Shown in pieces: positions 45,245 to 51,546 of a stretch of DNA of 64,000 nucleotides (positions are counted from its first letter, which is position 1; each line of letters starts with the position of its first letter). The notes under the pieces are model-generated. The model saw only the letters and a list, made by a program, of their open reading frames with translations. It made no database searches and was not told the DNA's origin. The position numbers and the translations under genes are program-made. This stretch comes from Paracoccus ravus (lineage in GTDB: Bacteria > Pseudomonadota > Alphaproteobacteria > Rhodobacterales > Rhodobacteraceae), in contig NZ_SDEB01000002.1 in NCBI RefSeq assembly GCF_004522175.1, positions 1 through 64,000 of the forward strand. The letters run 5' to 3'.

Positions 45245-46390
45245 ATGGCCCAGAAACCGACTGCATGTCTTGCGCTTGCCGACGGAACCGTTTTCTACGG
45301 ACAGGGCTTCGGCGCCACCGGAGAGGTCGTTGCCGAGCTGGTCTTCAACACGGCGATGACCGGCTACCAAGAGATCATGACCGATCCGTCTTATGCAAGC
45401 CAGATCGTAACCTTCACCTTTCCCCATGTCGGAAATACCGGCGTGACCGAGCAGGATGACGAGGCCCCCGAGCCGGTCGCCTCGGGCATCGTGGTGAAAT
45501 GGGATCCGACCGAGCCCTCGAACTGGCGCGCCACCAGCCATCTGGTCGAATGGATGGAAAAGCGTGGCCGCATCGGCATCGGTGGCATCGACACCCGCCG
45601 CCTGACCCGCGCCATCCGCCAGCAGGGCTCGCCGCATGTCGTTCTGGCGCATGATCCGAATGGCGAATTCGACATTGCCCGCATGGTCGCAAAGGCGCGC
45701 GACTGGAAGGGCCTTGTCGGGCTCGACCTCGCCAAAGAGGTCAGCTGCACACAAAGCTATCGCTGGGACGAAGGCCTCTGGGCCTGGCCGGGCGAGTTCG
45801 GCAAGACCGAAGAGCAGAAACCCTTCCGCGTCGTCGCGCTGGATTACGGCGCGAAGCGCAATATCCTGCGCTCGCTGGCGCAAAGCGGCGCCGAGGTCAT
45901 CGTGCTTCCCGCAACCGCCACCGCCGAGGAGGTTCTGGCCCATGAGCCCGAGGGCGTGTTCCTCTCGAACGGTCCGGGCGATCCGGCCGCGACCGGGGCC
46001 TATGCCGTGCCGATGATCCGCTCGCTTCTCGAAAAGGACCTGCCGATCTTTGGCATCTGCCTTGGCCACCAGATGCTGGCTCTGGCTTTGGGTGCGAAGA
46101 CGGTGAAGATGGGTCACGGTCATCACGGCGCGAACCATCCGGTGCGCGACGTGGAAAGCGGCAAGGTCGAGATCACCTCGATGAACCACGGTTTCGCGGT
46201 CGATGCGCAAAGCCTGCCCGAAGGCGTGATCGAGACGCATGTCAGCTTGTTTGACGGTTCGAATTGCGGGCTGCGCATGACCGACCGTCCGGTTTTCTCG
46301 GTCCAGTATCACCCCGAGGCCAGCCCCGGCCCGCAGGACAGCGCCTATCTCTTCGACCGTTTCGCCGAGGCGATGCGCGCCCGCCGCTGA
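45245..46390 (+). CDS. carA: Carbamoyl-phosphate synthase, small (glutaminase) subunit
   Basis: Encodes 381 residues. An N-terminal CPSase domain (FNTAMTGYQEIMTDPSY) is followed by a class I glutamine amidotransferase domain. The nucleophile is the Cys of FGICLGHQML, completed by the His and Glu of QYHPEASPGP. It supplies ammonia to CarB for arginine and pyrimidine synthesis. carB is not in the window. ATG 45245 lies behind GGAGAG. A strong terminator follows. Confidence 0.97.
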   Translation: MAQKPTACLALADGTVFYGQGFGATGEVVAELVFNTAMTGYQEIMTDPSYASQIVTFTFPHVGNTGVTEQDDEAPEPVASGIVVKWDPTEPSNWRATSHLVEWMEKRGRIGIGGIDTRRLTRAIRQQGSPHVVLAHDPNGEFDIARMVAKARDWKGLVGLDLAKEVSCTQSYRWDEGLWAWPGEFGKTEEQKPFRVVALDYGAKRNILRSLAQSGAEVIVLPATATAEEVLAHEPEGVFLSNGPGDPAATGAYAVPMIRSLLEKDLPIFGICLGHQMLALALGAKTVKMGHGHHGANHPVRDVESGKVEITSMNHGFAVDAQSLPEGVIETHVSLFDGSNCGLRMTDRPVFSVQYHPEASPGPQDSAYLFDRFAEAMRARR

Positions 46391-46447
46391 CGTAATATCC
46401 TTGATGCGGACCGCGCCTTCGGGGCCGGTTTCCCATTCTGCATGCAG

Positions 46448-46478
46448 GGCGGCCCCGGACGTAACGGGGCCGCCTTTT
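46448..46478 (+). terminator. Intrinsic terminator of carA
   Basis: GGCGGCCCC (46448-46456) and GGGGCCGCC (46466-46474) form a perfect 9-bp stem with a 9-base loop, followed by TTTT (46475-46478). It lies 58 bases after the stop and separates carA from the glycosyltransferase gene. Confidence 0.82.
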
Positions 46479-46580
46479 CCGTCACATTCTGGTCAAACCC
46501 TCCGGGATCGCGCTCAATCCGCTGATTTTTATGAAATGTTGCGCTTTCTCTGGCGTGGTCCGGCAGCGGCACGGCCATGC

Positions 46581-46596
46581 TTAACCCGTCCTTAAC
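46581..46596 (+). promoter_or_regulatory. Perfect CtrA-type box upstream of the glycosyltransferase
   Basis: TTAACCCGTCCTTAAC matches the full CtrA consensus TTAA-N7-TTAAC. It lies 43 bases upstream of the ATG at 46639, a position suited to control of that gene. In Rhodobacterales CtrA regulates motility, gene transfer agents and c-di-GMP functions. AT-rich sites of this kind are rare in such GC-rich DNA. Confidence 0.65.
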
Positions 46597-46638
46597 CCTT
46601 CGCGGGGAAAACAGGGGGCGCATAGGACGGGAATCACG

Positions 46639-48714
46639 ATGGCCAGCATCCGCGCGCTTGCGACAGAACCGATCGACCTGACCCTCGACGGCATGGCCTC
46701 GGGCGTGACAGAGGCTGGCGTGGTCAGCACGCGCGATCAGCGCCCCTTGGGCCAGATGCTGATCGAGGATGGCGCCGTCCAGCCGCGCGACCTGCTCAAG
46801 GCGCTTGCGATGCGCCAGCGGCAATCCGTCCGGCTGGGCGAAATCCTTCTTGCCAATGGCTGGGTCGAGGAACCGGCCCTGCTCCGGGCGCTGACACGGC
46901 AATGGCGTGCTCCGATCATCGATCTGGTGAAAATGCCGCCGGACCCGCGCCTGATCGACGCATTGGGTGCCGGCTTCTGCCTGGCCAAAGGCGTTGTGCC
47001 CTGGCGGCGGGTCGGCGGCGTCACCTATATCGCCACCGCGCGGCCCGACGAATTTGCAGACCTGCAGAAACGGCTGCCTCGGGATATGGGCGAGTTCCGG
47101 ATGCTTCTCTGTTCCGAGAATGCCGCGCGCGAGGCGCTTTTGCAGACCCGCCGCACCCTGCTGGCCCGGCAGGCGGAAACGCGGCTGCCCGGCGCGTTCA
47201 GTTGCCGGACCCGCGATGAACGGCAAACCAGACGCCTGGCGATCGCCCTTGTCGCGCTGGCCGGGCTTGGCCTTGCGTTCAAGCCCGGCGCGGTGATCGC
47301 GGTCCTGACCCTCTGGGCGGTGCTGACGCTCTTTGCCTCGATGTTGCTCAAGCTCTTCAGCTTTGCCGCGATCCTCAAGCGCAGTTCGGCAGAAGGCGCG
47401 ATCCGGCGCGAAATCGCCTCGGGACGGCTTGCGCGCCCGCAAATGACCGCCCCCCTTCCCGTGATCTCGGTCATGGTGCCGCTGTTCGCCGAGGCCAATA
47501 TCGCCGAGCGGTTGATCTCGCGCCTCGCACAGCTCGACTATCCGCGCGAGTTGATGGACATCCTTCTGGTGGTCGAAACCACGGACAAGGTGACCTGCGC
47601 GGCATTGGAAACCGCCATGCTGCCGCGCTGGATGCGGGTGGTGACCGTTCCCGAAGGGCCGGTGCAGACCAAGCCCCGTGCGCTGAATTATGCATTGAAT
47701 TTCTGCCGGGGGCAGATCGTCGGGATCTGGGACGCCGAGGACCGGCCCGAGCCGGACCAGTTGCACAAGGTCGCCCGCGGATTTCACGAAGCCGCGCCCG
47801 ACGTCGCCTGCCTGCAAGGCGTGCTCGATTATTACAATCCCCGCAGCAACTGGCTGGCGCGCGCCTTCACGCTGGAATATGCGGCGTGGTTTCGTGGCAC
47901 CTTGGCCGGTGCGGCGGCTCTGAACCTCGTCGTGCCGCTGGGCGGGACGACCCTGTTTTTCCGCCGCGCGCTTCTGGAGAATGTCGGCGGCTGGGACGCC
48001 TGGAACGTGACCGAGGATGCCGATCTGGGCGTCCGTCTCGTGCGGCATGGCTACCGCACCGAGATGCTCGACAGCATCACCCATGAAGAGGCGAATTGCA
48101 GGCTCTTGCCCTGGATCAAGCAGCGCTCGCGCTGGCTCAAGGGCTTCGCGATGACCTGGGGCGTGCATATGCGCGATCCTGTGGGCCTGTGGCGCGATCT
48201 TGGCCCGCGCCGCTTCCTCGCGCTGCAGGTCCAGCTTGCGGCCTCGGTCTCGCAATATCTGCTGGCGCCCGTGCTCTGGAGCTTCTGGCTGCTCTGCACC
48301 AGCTGGCCGCATCCGGTTCGCAGCATGCTCGAAGGGCATATGGCCGGGAGTATCATCCCCGTCTTGCTTGCGCTTTTCTTGGCCTCCGAGGTTCTCAATA
48401 TGGTGATCGCGGCGTGGGCGGTGCGCGGGAAGGAGCATCGCCATCTCTGGCCCTGGGTTCCGAGCCTGCACCTTTATTTCCCCTTGGGCTGCCTTGCCGC
48501 CTGGAAGGCGATGCACGAAATCATTCGAAAACCCTTCTATTGGGACAAGACCCAGCACGGGATCTATGATGCCGCGAGCGACGCGCCCGCCGCCCCGGCA
48601 GAGGCCCCACCAAAAGCCCGACTCATCCCGATGCAAGGAAAAGCCCAAGCCCCGCGGCGCCAGCCCCTGGCCCCCGGTCCGGTTGAACTCGACCTGATCG
48701 GACAGGTCGGTTGA
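46639..48714 (+). CDS. Membrane family 2 glycosyltransferase with N-terminal MshEN (c-di-GMP-type) domain
   Basis: Encodes 691 residues. Residues 36-59 and 65-88 are two LG-x2-L-x3-G...L-x3-L repeats separated by five residues, the layout of the c-di-GMP-binding MshEN domain. The first repeat is degenerate, with Pro and Arg at its ends; the second is complete (R65, Q88). Two membrane helices (about 200-247) lead to a GT2 domain with DAEDRPEPDQ, TEDADLGVRL and KQRSRWLKG, the motifs of processive inverting enzymes. Three more membrane spans follow. NfrB of E. coli has the same parts in reverse order. The product is probably a cell-surface or secreted polysaccharide. Confidence 0.85.
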   Translation: MASIRALATEPIDLTLDGMASGVTEAGVVSTRDQRPLGQMLIEDGAVQPRDLLKALAMRQRQSVRLGEILLANGWVEEPALLRALTRQWRAPIIDLVKMPPDPRLIDALGAGFCLAKGVVPWRRVGGVTYIATARPDEFADLQKRLPRDMGEFRMLLCSENAAREALLQTRRTLLARQAETRLPGAFSCRTRDERQTRRLAIALVALAGLGLAFKPGAVIAVLTLWAVLTLFASMLLKLFSFAAILKRSSAEGAIRREIASGRLARPQMTAPLPVISVMVPLFAEANIAERLISRLAQLDYPRELMDILLVVETTDKVTCAALETAMLPRWMRVVTVPEGPVQTKPRALNYALNFCRGQIVGIWDAEDRPEPDQLHKVARGFHEAAPDVACLQGVLDYYNPRSNWLARAFTLEYAAWFRGTLAGAAALNLVVPLGGTTLFFRRALLENVGGWDAWNVTEDADLGVRLVRHGYRTEMLDSITHEEANCRLLPWIKQRSRWLKGFAMTWGVHMRDPVGLWRDLGPRRFLALQVQLAASVSQYLLAPVLWSFWLLCTSWPHPVRSMLEGHMAGSIIPVLLALFLASEVLNMVIAAWAVRGKEHRHLWPWVPSLHLYFPLGCLAAWKAMHEIIRKPFYWDKTQHGIYDAASDAPAAPAEAPPKARLIPMQGKAQAPRRQPLAPGPVELDLIGQVG

Positions 48715-48729
48715 CGGATCGCCCGGGGC

Positions 48730-51546
48730 TCAGGTCTGGGCCGGTTCGGTCTGGGATAATGTCCTGTCGATGATCCCCCCGGCGCTGTCCACAACCTCGG
48801 CCAGCCTCGCCGACAGCCCGGCCAGATCGGCCATCCCGGTTTCACGCAGCAGGAAGGCCTGACCGCCCGCCCCCAGATTTTCCATGTTCAGGGGGCGCTC
48901 GGTCAGAAGCCGGCCCGAGCATTGCAGGTTCCACAGAAACCGCCGGGCCGAGGCCAGGGTTTCCGCCGCATGGCGGTCGATCAGCCCGCTGCGGGACCCG
49001 GCCCGCAACTGGGCGGCGACCGCCCGGGGCGACGCGCCGGATCGCAGCGCTAAGGATTGCGCCAGTAATTCGATGTCCTGCAGACGGCCGCGACCGATCT
49101 TGGCTTCCCATTCCCCATCCGGGGCCTTGGCGGCAAAGATGCGTCTGCGCATTTCCGCCAGATCCGAAAGGACCCGCGAATCGCCGCCCCTTGCGGACAG
49201 GACCTCGACGCGCAGTTCCTCGACCTGCCGGGCCAGCCCCGCGCCATCCGCACCACATGAGGCGATAGCGCGCGCGCGCGTCAGGGCAAGATGCTCCCAG
49301 GTCCAGGCCTCGTCCATCTGATAGGTGCGGAAGGACTGGATCGAGGTCGCGACCGGCCCCTGCCGCCCCGAGGGACGCAGCCGCATATCGACCTCATAAA
49401 GCCGTCCGGCCGAGCTTGGCGCCGACAGCGCCGTGATCATCGCCTGGGTCAGCCGGGCATAATAGGCGCGCGGCGCGAGGGGCTTTGCCCCTTCGGATGT
49501 GTCCTGCCCATCCGCATCATAGATCACGATCAGGTCCAGATCAGAACCCGCATTGAGTTGGCGCGCCCCCAAGGAACCCATGCCGAGCAGAACTGCCCCG
49601 CGCCCCGGCGGGGGACCGTGCCGGCGCGCGAATTCCGCGCTGACGATCGGAAACAGGGTGACCAGAACCGCATCCGCGATATCGGCATATTGCGCGCCGG
49701 CCTCTTCTGCGTCGATCAGGGCACGAAGGTGATGCACCCCGGTGCGGAACTGCCATTCATGGGCCCATCGGCGGGCCTCGTCCAACGCGCGCTCGTAGCT
49801 GCCGCCCGAGGCCTGGGCCGCCTGGTTCAGATGAAACTGCAACTGGTGCTGCAGGCCCTCTGCCCCCGGCCAGGGCGAAAAGAAGCTGCCCCCCAGCACC
49901 GCGTCGAGAACACCCGGATGCCGCGCCAGATAGGCGGCGAGTCCGGGGGCGACACCGCAGATGTCGGCGATCAGGTCGATCAGTTGCGGATTGGCCTCGA
50001 AGAGCGAGAAAAGCTGGACGCCGGCCGGCAGGCCCGAAAGGAACGCATCAAAGCGCAAAAGCGCATCCGGGCCATGATCGCTGCCGATCAGCCGGGTCAG
50101 AAGATCAGATTCGATCCGGGCAAAGACCTGGCGTGCCCGCTGCGAGCGCAGGGCGGGATAGGAACGCCAGCGCTCGACCATCGCCTGCGCCTCTGGCGCA
50201 AGCTTCGGCAATTCCCTCTGCTTCTCATTTGCAAAGAAACTCGCGGTCAGGGTCTCGACGCGTTCGAGCCGCGCAACGATCCCGTCCGACCATGCCGCGA
50301 CATCGCCCGCGCCCATCATATGCGCGATATTGGCCAGACCCTCGGCGCTCTGCGGCAAGAGATGGGTCTGCGCATCATTCACCATCTGGATACGATGCTC
50401 GACTTCGCGATGCGCGCGGTAATGCGCGGTCAGTTCCTCGGCGACATCCTGCGGGATCCAGCCCTTTGCGGCAAGTCGCGCCAGCCCCTCGACCGTGCCC
50501 CGCACGCGCAGATCCGGATCGCGGCCACCGGCGATCAGTTGGCGGGTCTGGGTAAAAAACTCGATCTCGCGGATCCCGCCCCGACCGAGTTTCATGTTAT
50601 GGCCCAAAGCCTCGATCCGGCCATGCAGGCCCTTGTGATCGCGGATACGGCGGCGCATGTCCTCGGTGTCCTGGATGGTCGCGAAATCCAGATGCCTGCG
50701 CCAGACAAAGGGCGTCAATTCGTGCAGAAAACGCGCGCCTGCCGCGAGGTTTCCGCCGCAGGGCCGCGCCTTGATATAGGCGCTGCGCTCCCAGGTGCGA
50801 CCCTCGGCCTCGTAATAGGCCAGCGCCGCGGCAATGGACATGCAGACCGGGGTGACCGCCGCATCGGGGCGCAGCCGCAGGTCGGTCCGGAACACGTAAC
50901 CCTGATCGGTATTGTCCGAGAGCGTCGCCGCCGCGCGGCGGGTGGCGCGGATCAGGGCGGCCCGGGCATCGAATTGATCCTCTGGTGCATAGGCCGTCTC
51001 GTCATAGAGCACGATCAGGTCGATATCCGAGGAATAGTTCAACTCGCCCGCACCCATCTTGCCCATGGCGAGCGCGGTGATGCCGCCGGCCTCGCTTTGG
51101 GTCCGGGGCAGCTTGCCGCGGGCGCGCTCTTGCTCGACATGGACGCGCAATGCGAGGTCTGTGGCCCGATCGGCCAGCGCCGTCAGCGCCCCCGTCACCG
51201 CTTCGAGCGACCAGATCCCGGCCAGATCCAGAAGCGCGGTCCAAAGCGCCACGCGCCGCTTGGCACGCCGCAGCGCCGGGCCGAGATCCTCGGCCGAAAG
51301 CGCCTCGAAGCCCGCGGTTTCGCGATGCGCAATGTCATGCTGCCCCACCCCCTCTTGGGCCAGAGCGGCGGTCAACCACCCGCTTTCATGCGCGATCAGG
51401 CCCGCCAGATAGGGGCTGCATCCTGCCGCACCGCGAACCAGCGCCGCCATTTCGGGTGCAAGTGGTCCTAGCAGGTCCAGGGCCGACTGACCGCGGGCCG
51501 GATCGAAGGGAATCGGAAATCGGGTGATCTTCTGCGCAAGTGTCAT
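48730..51546 (-). CDS. glnE: Glutamine synthetase adenylyltransferase/adenylyl-removing enzyme
   Basis: Encodes 938 residues, close to the E. coli length. Two nucleotidyltransferase domains are visible: [20 protein letters not shown] (deadenylylase, N-terminal half) and [20 protein letters not shown] (adenylylase, C-terminal half). The enzyme tunes glutamine synthetase to nitrogen supply under PII control. The protein ends 16 bases from the convergent glycosyltransferase stop. Its start lies in a 269-base divergent gap shared with bpt, where no strong promoter was identified. Confidence 0.96.

Follow-up and report, generated by a model that had tools for sequence, protein, structure and literature searches.

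NfrB of Escherichia coli is a c-di-GMP-activated exopolysaccharide (EPS) synthase in which an MshEN domain and a processive-type family 2 glycosyltransferase (GT2) with TED and QxxRW motifs are joined in one inner-membrane protein (PMC8669469). Its MshEN domain lies at the C terminus and has been shown to bind c-di-GMP (PMC8669469). That MshEN domains can be fused to glycosyltransferases was described by Wang et al., who also found that the Arg and Gln at the motif ends and the Leu and Gly positions of MshE bind c-di-GMP (PMC5013675). The same fold, with tandem 24-residue motifs, forms the N-terminal (GSPII, MshEN) domains of MshE, PilB and PilF, where it is attached to an ATPase. Membrane-bound GT2 synthases of related build are BcsA, which combines a GT2 core and membrane helices with a c-di-GMP theme, and the hyaluronan synthases of Chlorella virus and Xenopus, in which interface and membrane helices accompany the GT2 core. 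In BcsA a PilZ domain stands at the C terminus, and these two hyaluronan synthases are not known to carry an MshEN domain. The response regulator CtrA is known in the Rhodobacterales for targets of other kinds: flagellar, c-di-GMP-turnover and dprA genes, and in some strains gene transfer agent (GTA), competence and quorum-sensing genes (PMC12363192).

Here, we analysed a 64-kb stretch of Paracoccus DNA (the window) that carries a gene for an MshEN-GT2 fusion protein preceded by a CtrA-type box. The protein shares with NfrB the MshEN domain, the processive-type GT2 and the TED and QxxRW motifs, and it has the parts in the opposite order, with MshEN before the glycosyltransferase, just as the preliminary description of the locus had held. 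Further differences are that the window protein has DAED where NfrB is described with DxD and that it is encoded by a lone gene beside carA rather than in an operon such as nfrBA-ybcH. Binding of c-di-GMP, shown for NfrB (PMC8669469), is possible for the window protein as well. The NCBIfam NfrB model scored 42.2 bits against it (cut-off 1170), with the best stretch at residues 31–133, and NfrA_C (PF13283) was found in none of 120 family genomes, our own included, in a search whose E. coli control was positive. The reversed order, the low score and the lack of NfrA_C in the 120 genomes rule out an NfrB equivalog. The protein differs from BcsA in its N-terminal MshEN domain and in its score with the CelA model (45.6 bits, cut-off 699.1), and is only 10–14% identical to the two hyaluronan synthases; from MshE, PilB and PilF it differs in that its MshEN domain is attached to a glycosyltransferase and its motif I is altered at both ends.

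The locus has the TTAA-N7-TTAA(C) site expected of a member of the Rhodobacterales CtrA regulon, whereas the synthase is not named in the regulon section of PMC12363192. Words beginning with "glycosyl" or "polysaccharide" do not occur in the main texts, as far as covered, on the regulons of Dinoroseobacter shibae (PMC4046655) and Phaeobacter inhibens (PMC12363192). We found no report of the synthase as a CtrA target in the literature covered, which did not extend to the supplementary regulon tables, where the gene may be listed without comment. MshEN-glycosyltransferase fusions are already known; we found no report of one that is widespread, linked to carA, has its MshEN domain first and is preceded by a conserved CtrA site. 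Two other sets of surface genes were compared by description: the Paracoccus aggregation gene pxm (Pden_0842) encodes a phosphoglycosyltransferase in a different cluster and was set apart (PMC13235738), and Rhodobacter capsulatus has a capsule cluster, rcc01081–01086, and a chain-initiation gene, rcc01932 (PMC10218006).

The synthase gene beside carA

The window belongs to a genome of 4,200,079 bases in 90 contigs. Among named loci, the closest are those of Paracoccus species, with identities of up to 74% in the best segment. The fusion gene stands between two ORFs that we take, from their sequences, to be carA and glnE (Table 1). A match to the synthase was obtained in 268 of 295 Rhodobacteraceae genomes (E 1e-20). 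The arrangement is best explained by a lone gene that is fixed beside carA in the Rhodobacteraceae.

Table 1. Coordinates of the features of the locus (positions in the window; residues of the fusion protein)
Feature	Position	Strand	Basis or remark
carA, conserved upstream neighbour	45245..46390	+	in 70/70 loci longer than 11 kb
CtrA-type box TTAAC-N6-TTAAC, TTAACCCGTCCTTAAC	46581..46596	+	also fits TTAA-N7-TTAA; 42 nt before ATG
Conserved downstream element, family TG(C/G)(A/C)A, +24 to +28 from box start	46605..46609	+	column frequencies, 113 boxes
MshEN-GT2 fusion gene	46639..48714	+	open ORF, 691 aa, between carA and glnE
MshEN domain, residues 34–171	46738..47151	+	model versus MshE + c-di-GMP structure 5htl_B
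c-di-GMP-type motif I, residues 36–59	46744..46815	+	substitutions at both ends (P36, R59)
c-di-GMP-type motif II, residues 65–88, RLGEILLANGWVEEPALLRALTRQ	46831..46902	+	ligand-contact positions all present
Hydrophobic stretch, residues 200–247	47236..47379	+	hydropathy and model helices
GT2 catalytic domain, residues 273–502	47455..48144	+	DAED 365–368, TED 458–460, QRSRW 495–499
C-terminal interface/membrane helices, residues 523–630	48205..48528	+	model helices; region covered by alignments with BcsA and hyaluronan synthases
glnE, convergent downstream neighbour	48730..51546	-	in 51/70 loci longer than 11 kb

An AlphaFold2 model of the protein, obtained with 57 sequences, had a mean pLDDT of 86.5 and a pTM of 0.85. 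The hydrophobic stretch behind the MshEN domain probably forms two membrane helices in front of the catalytic domain, as modelled. The Pfam GT2 profile PF13641 matched residues 275–501 with 99.6 bits (cut-off 27), and the sequence motifs were nearly invariant among 122 family proteins: DAED, a variant of DxD, and QRSRW were present in all 122, and TED in 121. When residues 214–644 of the model were compared with solved structures, the best match was to PcManGT (Z 27.7, rmsd 4.0, 336 residues aligned), with Z scores of 18–24 for BcsA and 20–23 for the hyaluronan synthases. A GT-A core, C-terminal membrane helices and the Asp motif, TED and QxxRW, the features of a processive GT2, are all present. 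Fold and invariant motifs bear out the earlier assignment of a processive-type GT2 fused to MshEN, and the model supports the architecture of a membrane synthase of the processive type. The product may be a surface polysaccharide, as the preliminary description suggested.

The CtrA-type box and its conservation

The box TTAACCCGTCCTTAAC (46581–46596, forward strand) was the sole match to TTAA-N7-TTAA(C) in the window, in which dinucleotide shuffles gave an expectation of 0.01. The perfect TTAA-N7-TTAAC box reported in the preliminary description is thus there and unique, and the 43-base gap to the gene needs a small correction, being 42 bases by count to the ATG at 46639. Compared with the form of the D. 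shibae CtrA site, TTAAC-N5-GTTAAC (PMC7232146), the window box has everything except the G. Across the 4.2-Mb genome there was no enrichment of the bare TTAA-N7-TTAA (13 places; reversed control, 22) or of the TTAAC form (7 distinct places; reversed control, 10 strand matches). Genome-wide enrichment was dropped as support, the bare box being rarer than its reversed control. A single site, which in a GC-rich genome might arise by chance, therefore proves little, and we judged the footprint to be real because the box is conserved before orthologues.

The orthologue set comprised 109 loci (L002–L110, own locus excluded), 106 of which had at least 250 nt of upstream sequence and an alignment start before residue 100; removal of five duplicates with identical coding sequence left 101 distinct orthologues. 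The box was sought from -220 to +30 relative to the aligned start. TTAA-N7-TTAA was found before 96 of the 101, as against two occurrences in the remaining 954,257 nt of these loci. The spacers N5, N6, N8, N9 and N10 occurred in 1, 0, 0, 2 and 0 of the 101, and all five orthologues without the exact box had one with a single mismatch. Seventeen of 20 more divergent Rhodobacteraceae members also carried the box, which in one of them (L151) lay 350 nt before the aligned start; two of the misses were one mismatch off and one had no box at all. These 20 were hand-picked among the matches listed in the 295-genome search, the weaker matches being represented by six genomes with the synthase and no CtrA. 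By comparison, the exact box was absent from all 20 homologues of other alphaproteobacterial families, two of one family being one mismatch off; the 20 were drawn from 38 genomes with a match, 17 of them because the match began at the MshEN region. Within the sample compared, the box is restricted to the Rhodobacteraceae. Judged by its conservation, the box is a real phylogenetic footprint. Of the double control by CtrA and c-di-GMP that had been proposed for the gene, the CtrA part is well supported in the form of this conserved predicted binding site; the c-di-GMP part is the weaker one.

Alignment of 113 boxes (own included) gave strong columns at TTAAC(C)...TTAACC and at a short element (+24 to +28, counted from the first base of the box). 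Minor columns of 0.2 to 0.5 bit were seen at spacer position 9, at +18, at +33 to +35 and at +48, and the rest were below 0.2 bit. TG-N2-A occurred at +24 in 40 of the 113 sequences and in 0–3 of 113 at six control offsets; the window has GGGAA at this place, keeping the A's and lacking the TG. The gap between box and ATG had a median of 43 nt, with 10th and 90th percentiles of 40 and 51 nt (106 loci with an in-frame ATG). From the sequence pattern we infer that the TGNNA element is an extended -10 and that CtrA binds immediately before it. At L150, L164 and L200, and also in G006, two or three tandem TTAA half-sites with an 11-bp period form overlapping CtrA-type boxes. In the window, scans of 46380–46700 gave no match to a sigma-70 promoter and no terminator-like site between carA and the box (46391–46580), so that read-through from carA may be a further source of transcript. 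No riboswitch or other RNA upstream of the synthase was matched in Rfam at gathering thresholds (46300–46800).

Another box of the window genome (L123:1501) precedes a gene that, from its sequence, is presumably comM-like. In R. capsulatus, comM is listed among the recipient-capability genes (PMC10218006). The comM promoter was rejected as a positive control: in 28 orthologues (30 loci, minus our own and one with short upstream sequence; L168–L196), TTAA-N7-TTAA was found in none and TTAA-N6-TTAA in seven, while our own genome has N7.

Could the synthase box be a chance match, or have been kept by shared ancestry without any function? The lack of genome-wide enrichment and the unconserved box before the comM-like gene would fit such a view. 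It is very improbable, however, and already contradicted by the retention of both halves and of the N7 spacer among proteins down to about 45% identity, with flanking columns that are mostly near random. What CtrA would do at the box is a separate matter. Its position just upstream of the conserved element leads one to expect an activator-type arrangement. Caulobacter CtrA both activates and represses, and the sign of regulation is unreadable from sequence alone; CtrA might bind the box and repress the gene, for example confining its expression to a CtrA-inactive stage. We regard repression as unlikely, since the box lies upstream of the TGNNA element, at a fixed spacing, and not over it, and since three phosphorelay mutants of P. 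inhibens mostly down-regulate the genes that they share (PMC12363192). Activation by CtrA is the reading that we retain.

The CtrA of the window genome is 71% identical to Caulobacter crescentus CtrA over 224 aa, and the next best response regulator only 38%. Using a threshold of E 1e-60, we found CtrA in 270 of the 295 Rhodobacteraceae genomes. Synthase and CtrA occurred together in 261 genomes, the synthase only in seven, CtrA only in nine and neither in 18, a strong association in a table that counts genomes irrespective of phylogeny. In a sample of 90 genomes, comM was missing from four, each of which lacks both CtrA and the synthase, so genomes with neither have other losses as well. Of these 18 (G014, G029, G059 and G102 among them), several are large, 3.4–5.6 Mb, and gave few response-regulator candidates in an initial search.

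Five of the seven synthase-only genomes keep the exact box. As to the others, the contig of G273 has no upstream sequence, and no box was found in G008, in which the best alignment begins only at residue 261. Most of the seven are probably incomplete assemblies, since G006 has a CtrA fragment. This does not apply to G184, which is 99% complete: it has the synthase with a perfect box (G184:C1:514418–516289) and, in our search, no CtrA above 34% identity. The case counts against CtrA control, and an incomplete assembly would hardly explain it.

The MshEN domain and its c-di-GMP-type motifs

Residues 34–171 of the model superimposed on the MshE structure with bound c-di-GMP (5htl_B) with a Z score of 17.9 and an rmsd of 2.3 over 137 residues at 24% identity. 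The NCBIfam profile NF053729 ("c-di-GMP_motif") matched residues 36–88 with 48.5 bits (cut-off 38), and Pfam MshEN (PF05157) matched residues 90–167 with 30 bits (cut-off 23.1) and was present in 56 of 57 aligned family members. Profile matches extended to the solved domains of PilF, PilB and MshE, several of which are named as c-di-GMP-binding. The MshEN assignment of the preliminary description is in this way upheld by two profiles above their cut-offs and by matches to solved domains, as is its view of the two repeats, the first being degenerate at its outer positions and the second complete in its ligand contacts. Motif I starts with P-L-G and ends with R59, compared with RLG...Q, and A46 occupies one of its L/V/I positions. 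Motif II, RLGEILLANGWVEEPALLRALTRQ, fits the published 24-residue motif except that W75 stands where L, V or I is expected. Exactly five residues separate the two motifs.

These substitutions are common in the family. Of the 122 family proteins, 96 have Pro and four Arg at the first position of motif I (no Arg in 118), and at the last position Arg is found in 72 and Gln in 36 (no Gln in 86). The pattern PLG..R is present in 45 of 61 proteins of a set made up of Paracoccus and the window. Motif II is full in 78 of the 122 and full but for its Arg in 27 more; Q88 is kept in 113, G38 in 120 and G67 in 110. Next to the motifs (residues 60–61, 46816–46821, and residue 89, 46903–46905), R61 is found in 107 and W89 in 89 of the 122 family proteins, as compared with 3 of 17 and 0 of 17 in other families. 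R61 and W89 possibly reshape the ligand pocket.

The GSPII domains of Thermus PilF offer a scale for such changes. A Pro at one motif start does not keep GSPII-C from binding c-di-GMP, its KD being similar to that of MshE, and GSPII-B, with Lys/Leu at the motif start, binds at 6 nM (PMC11731258). GSPII-A, with non-Gln ends, does not bind, and binding was regained with both Gln, an Arg starting motif II and trimming (PMC12002112). For the window protein, the MshEN fold and the intact motif II speak for the c-di-GMP control that had been proposed, and the replacement of the last Gln of motif I, a ligand contact in MshE, in 86 of the 122 proteins (window included) speaks against it. From its fold and motifs, the MshEN domain probably senses c-di-GMP. 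Control by c-di-GMP appears plausible and is less supported than control by CtrA.

Two alternatives concern the protein. CtrA may control the gene while the MshEN domain, in Paracoccus, no longer senses c-di-GMP and has been retained for a structural role or for binding a partner. The exchange of Gln for R59 in 72 of the proteins and the frequent PLG..R in Paracoccus would suit this, and non-binding domains have precedents in XpsE/GspE (PMC5013675) and PilF GSPII-A (PMC12002112). We find it doubtful, if worth taking seriously, because motif II is full, or lacks just its Arg, in so many family members, because Q88, G38 and G67 are so widely kept, and because Pro at the first position is compatible with binding in PilF GSPII-C (PMC11731258). 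The other alternative is a non-processive GT2 part, one that loads a single sugar onto a lipid carrier or glycolipid, in which case the output would be a modified envelope lipid and not a polymer. PcManGT, which is not known as a processive enzyme, is after all the structure with the highest Z score. Nevertheless, a non-processive enzyme seems rather unlikely, given that the alignments with BcsA and the hyaluronan synthases reach residues 630–651, with the C-terminal helices included, and that the QRSRW of all 122 proteins fits the QxxRW signature of processive glycosyltransferases (PMC8669469). We keep to a processive, c-di-GMP-sensing synthase as the preferred reading.

A possible joint output of CtrA and c-di-GMP

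The locus suggests the following mechanism. Phosphorylated CtrA would bind the TTAA-N7-TTAA box in the synthase promoter, as indicated by the strong phylogenetic footprint, and would most likely activate transcription, given that a conserved element follows the box closely. The synthase, by its fold and invariant motifs an inner-membrane GT2 of the processive type, would turn nucleotide-sugars into a growing glycan that passes through its own helices. By binding c-di-GMP, the N-terminal MshEN domain would adjust its activity; in Paracoccus the contacts to the first guanine are probably weaker or altered. With CtrA activation and MshEN adjustment combined, an envelope glycan would be made chiefly in cells with active CtrA and a high level of c-di-GMP. 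For this model as a whole, a CtrA-activated, c-di-GMP-adjusted processive GT2 glycan synthase beside carA, which rests on sequence comparison and a predicted structure, we have a slight preference. The overall interpretation of the preliminary description is in part supported, by the predicted CtrA site and by the fold and motifs of the GT2; for c-di-GMP control, with the altered motif I, the case is weaker. Two outcomes that the preliminary description had named as refuting it, a lack of significant MshEN hits and a lack of the box before orthologues, did not occur.

A bolder reading, which we offer tentatively and think rather improbable, is that the synthase represents a core output of CtrA that is ancestral and independent of motility, and that it acts as a coincidence detector, giving envelope glycan only at high levels of both CtrA~P and c-di-GMP. 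The glycan would then be attachment material or a receptor layer, and it would persist in non-motile lineages such as Paracoccus denitrificans. The orthologue of P. denitrificans (L033), a species described as non-motile (PMC13235738), keeps a perfect box. The window genome encodes flagellins (three matches), so that it cannot by itself separate the synthase target from motility.

In the literature covered, accounts of the Rhodobacterales CtrA regulon centre on flagella, gene transfer agents and quorum sensing, and the synthase would bring a surface-glycan output into this regulon. It would also provide an MshEN-first architecture of a c-di-GMP-controlled synthase. As a candidate for control by both CtrA and c-di-GMP, the synthase lends itself readily to testing, and it would offer a simple system for studying the convergence of two lifestyle regulators on one protein.
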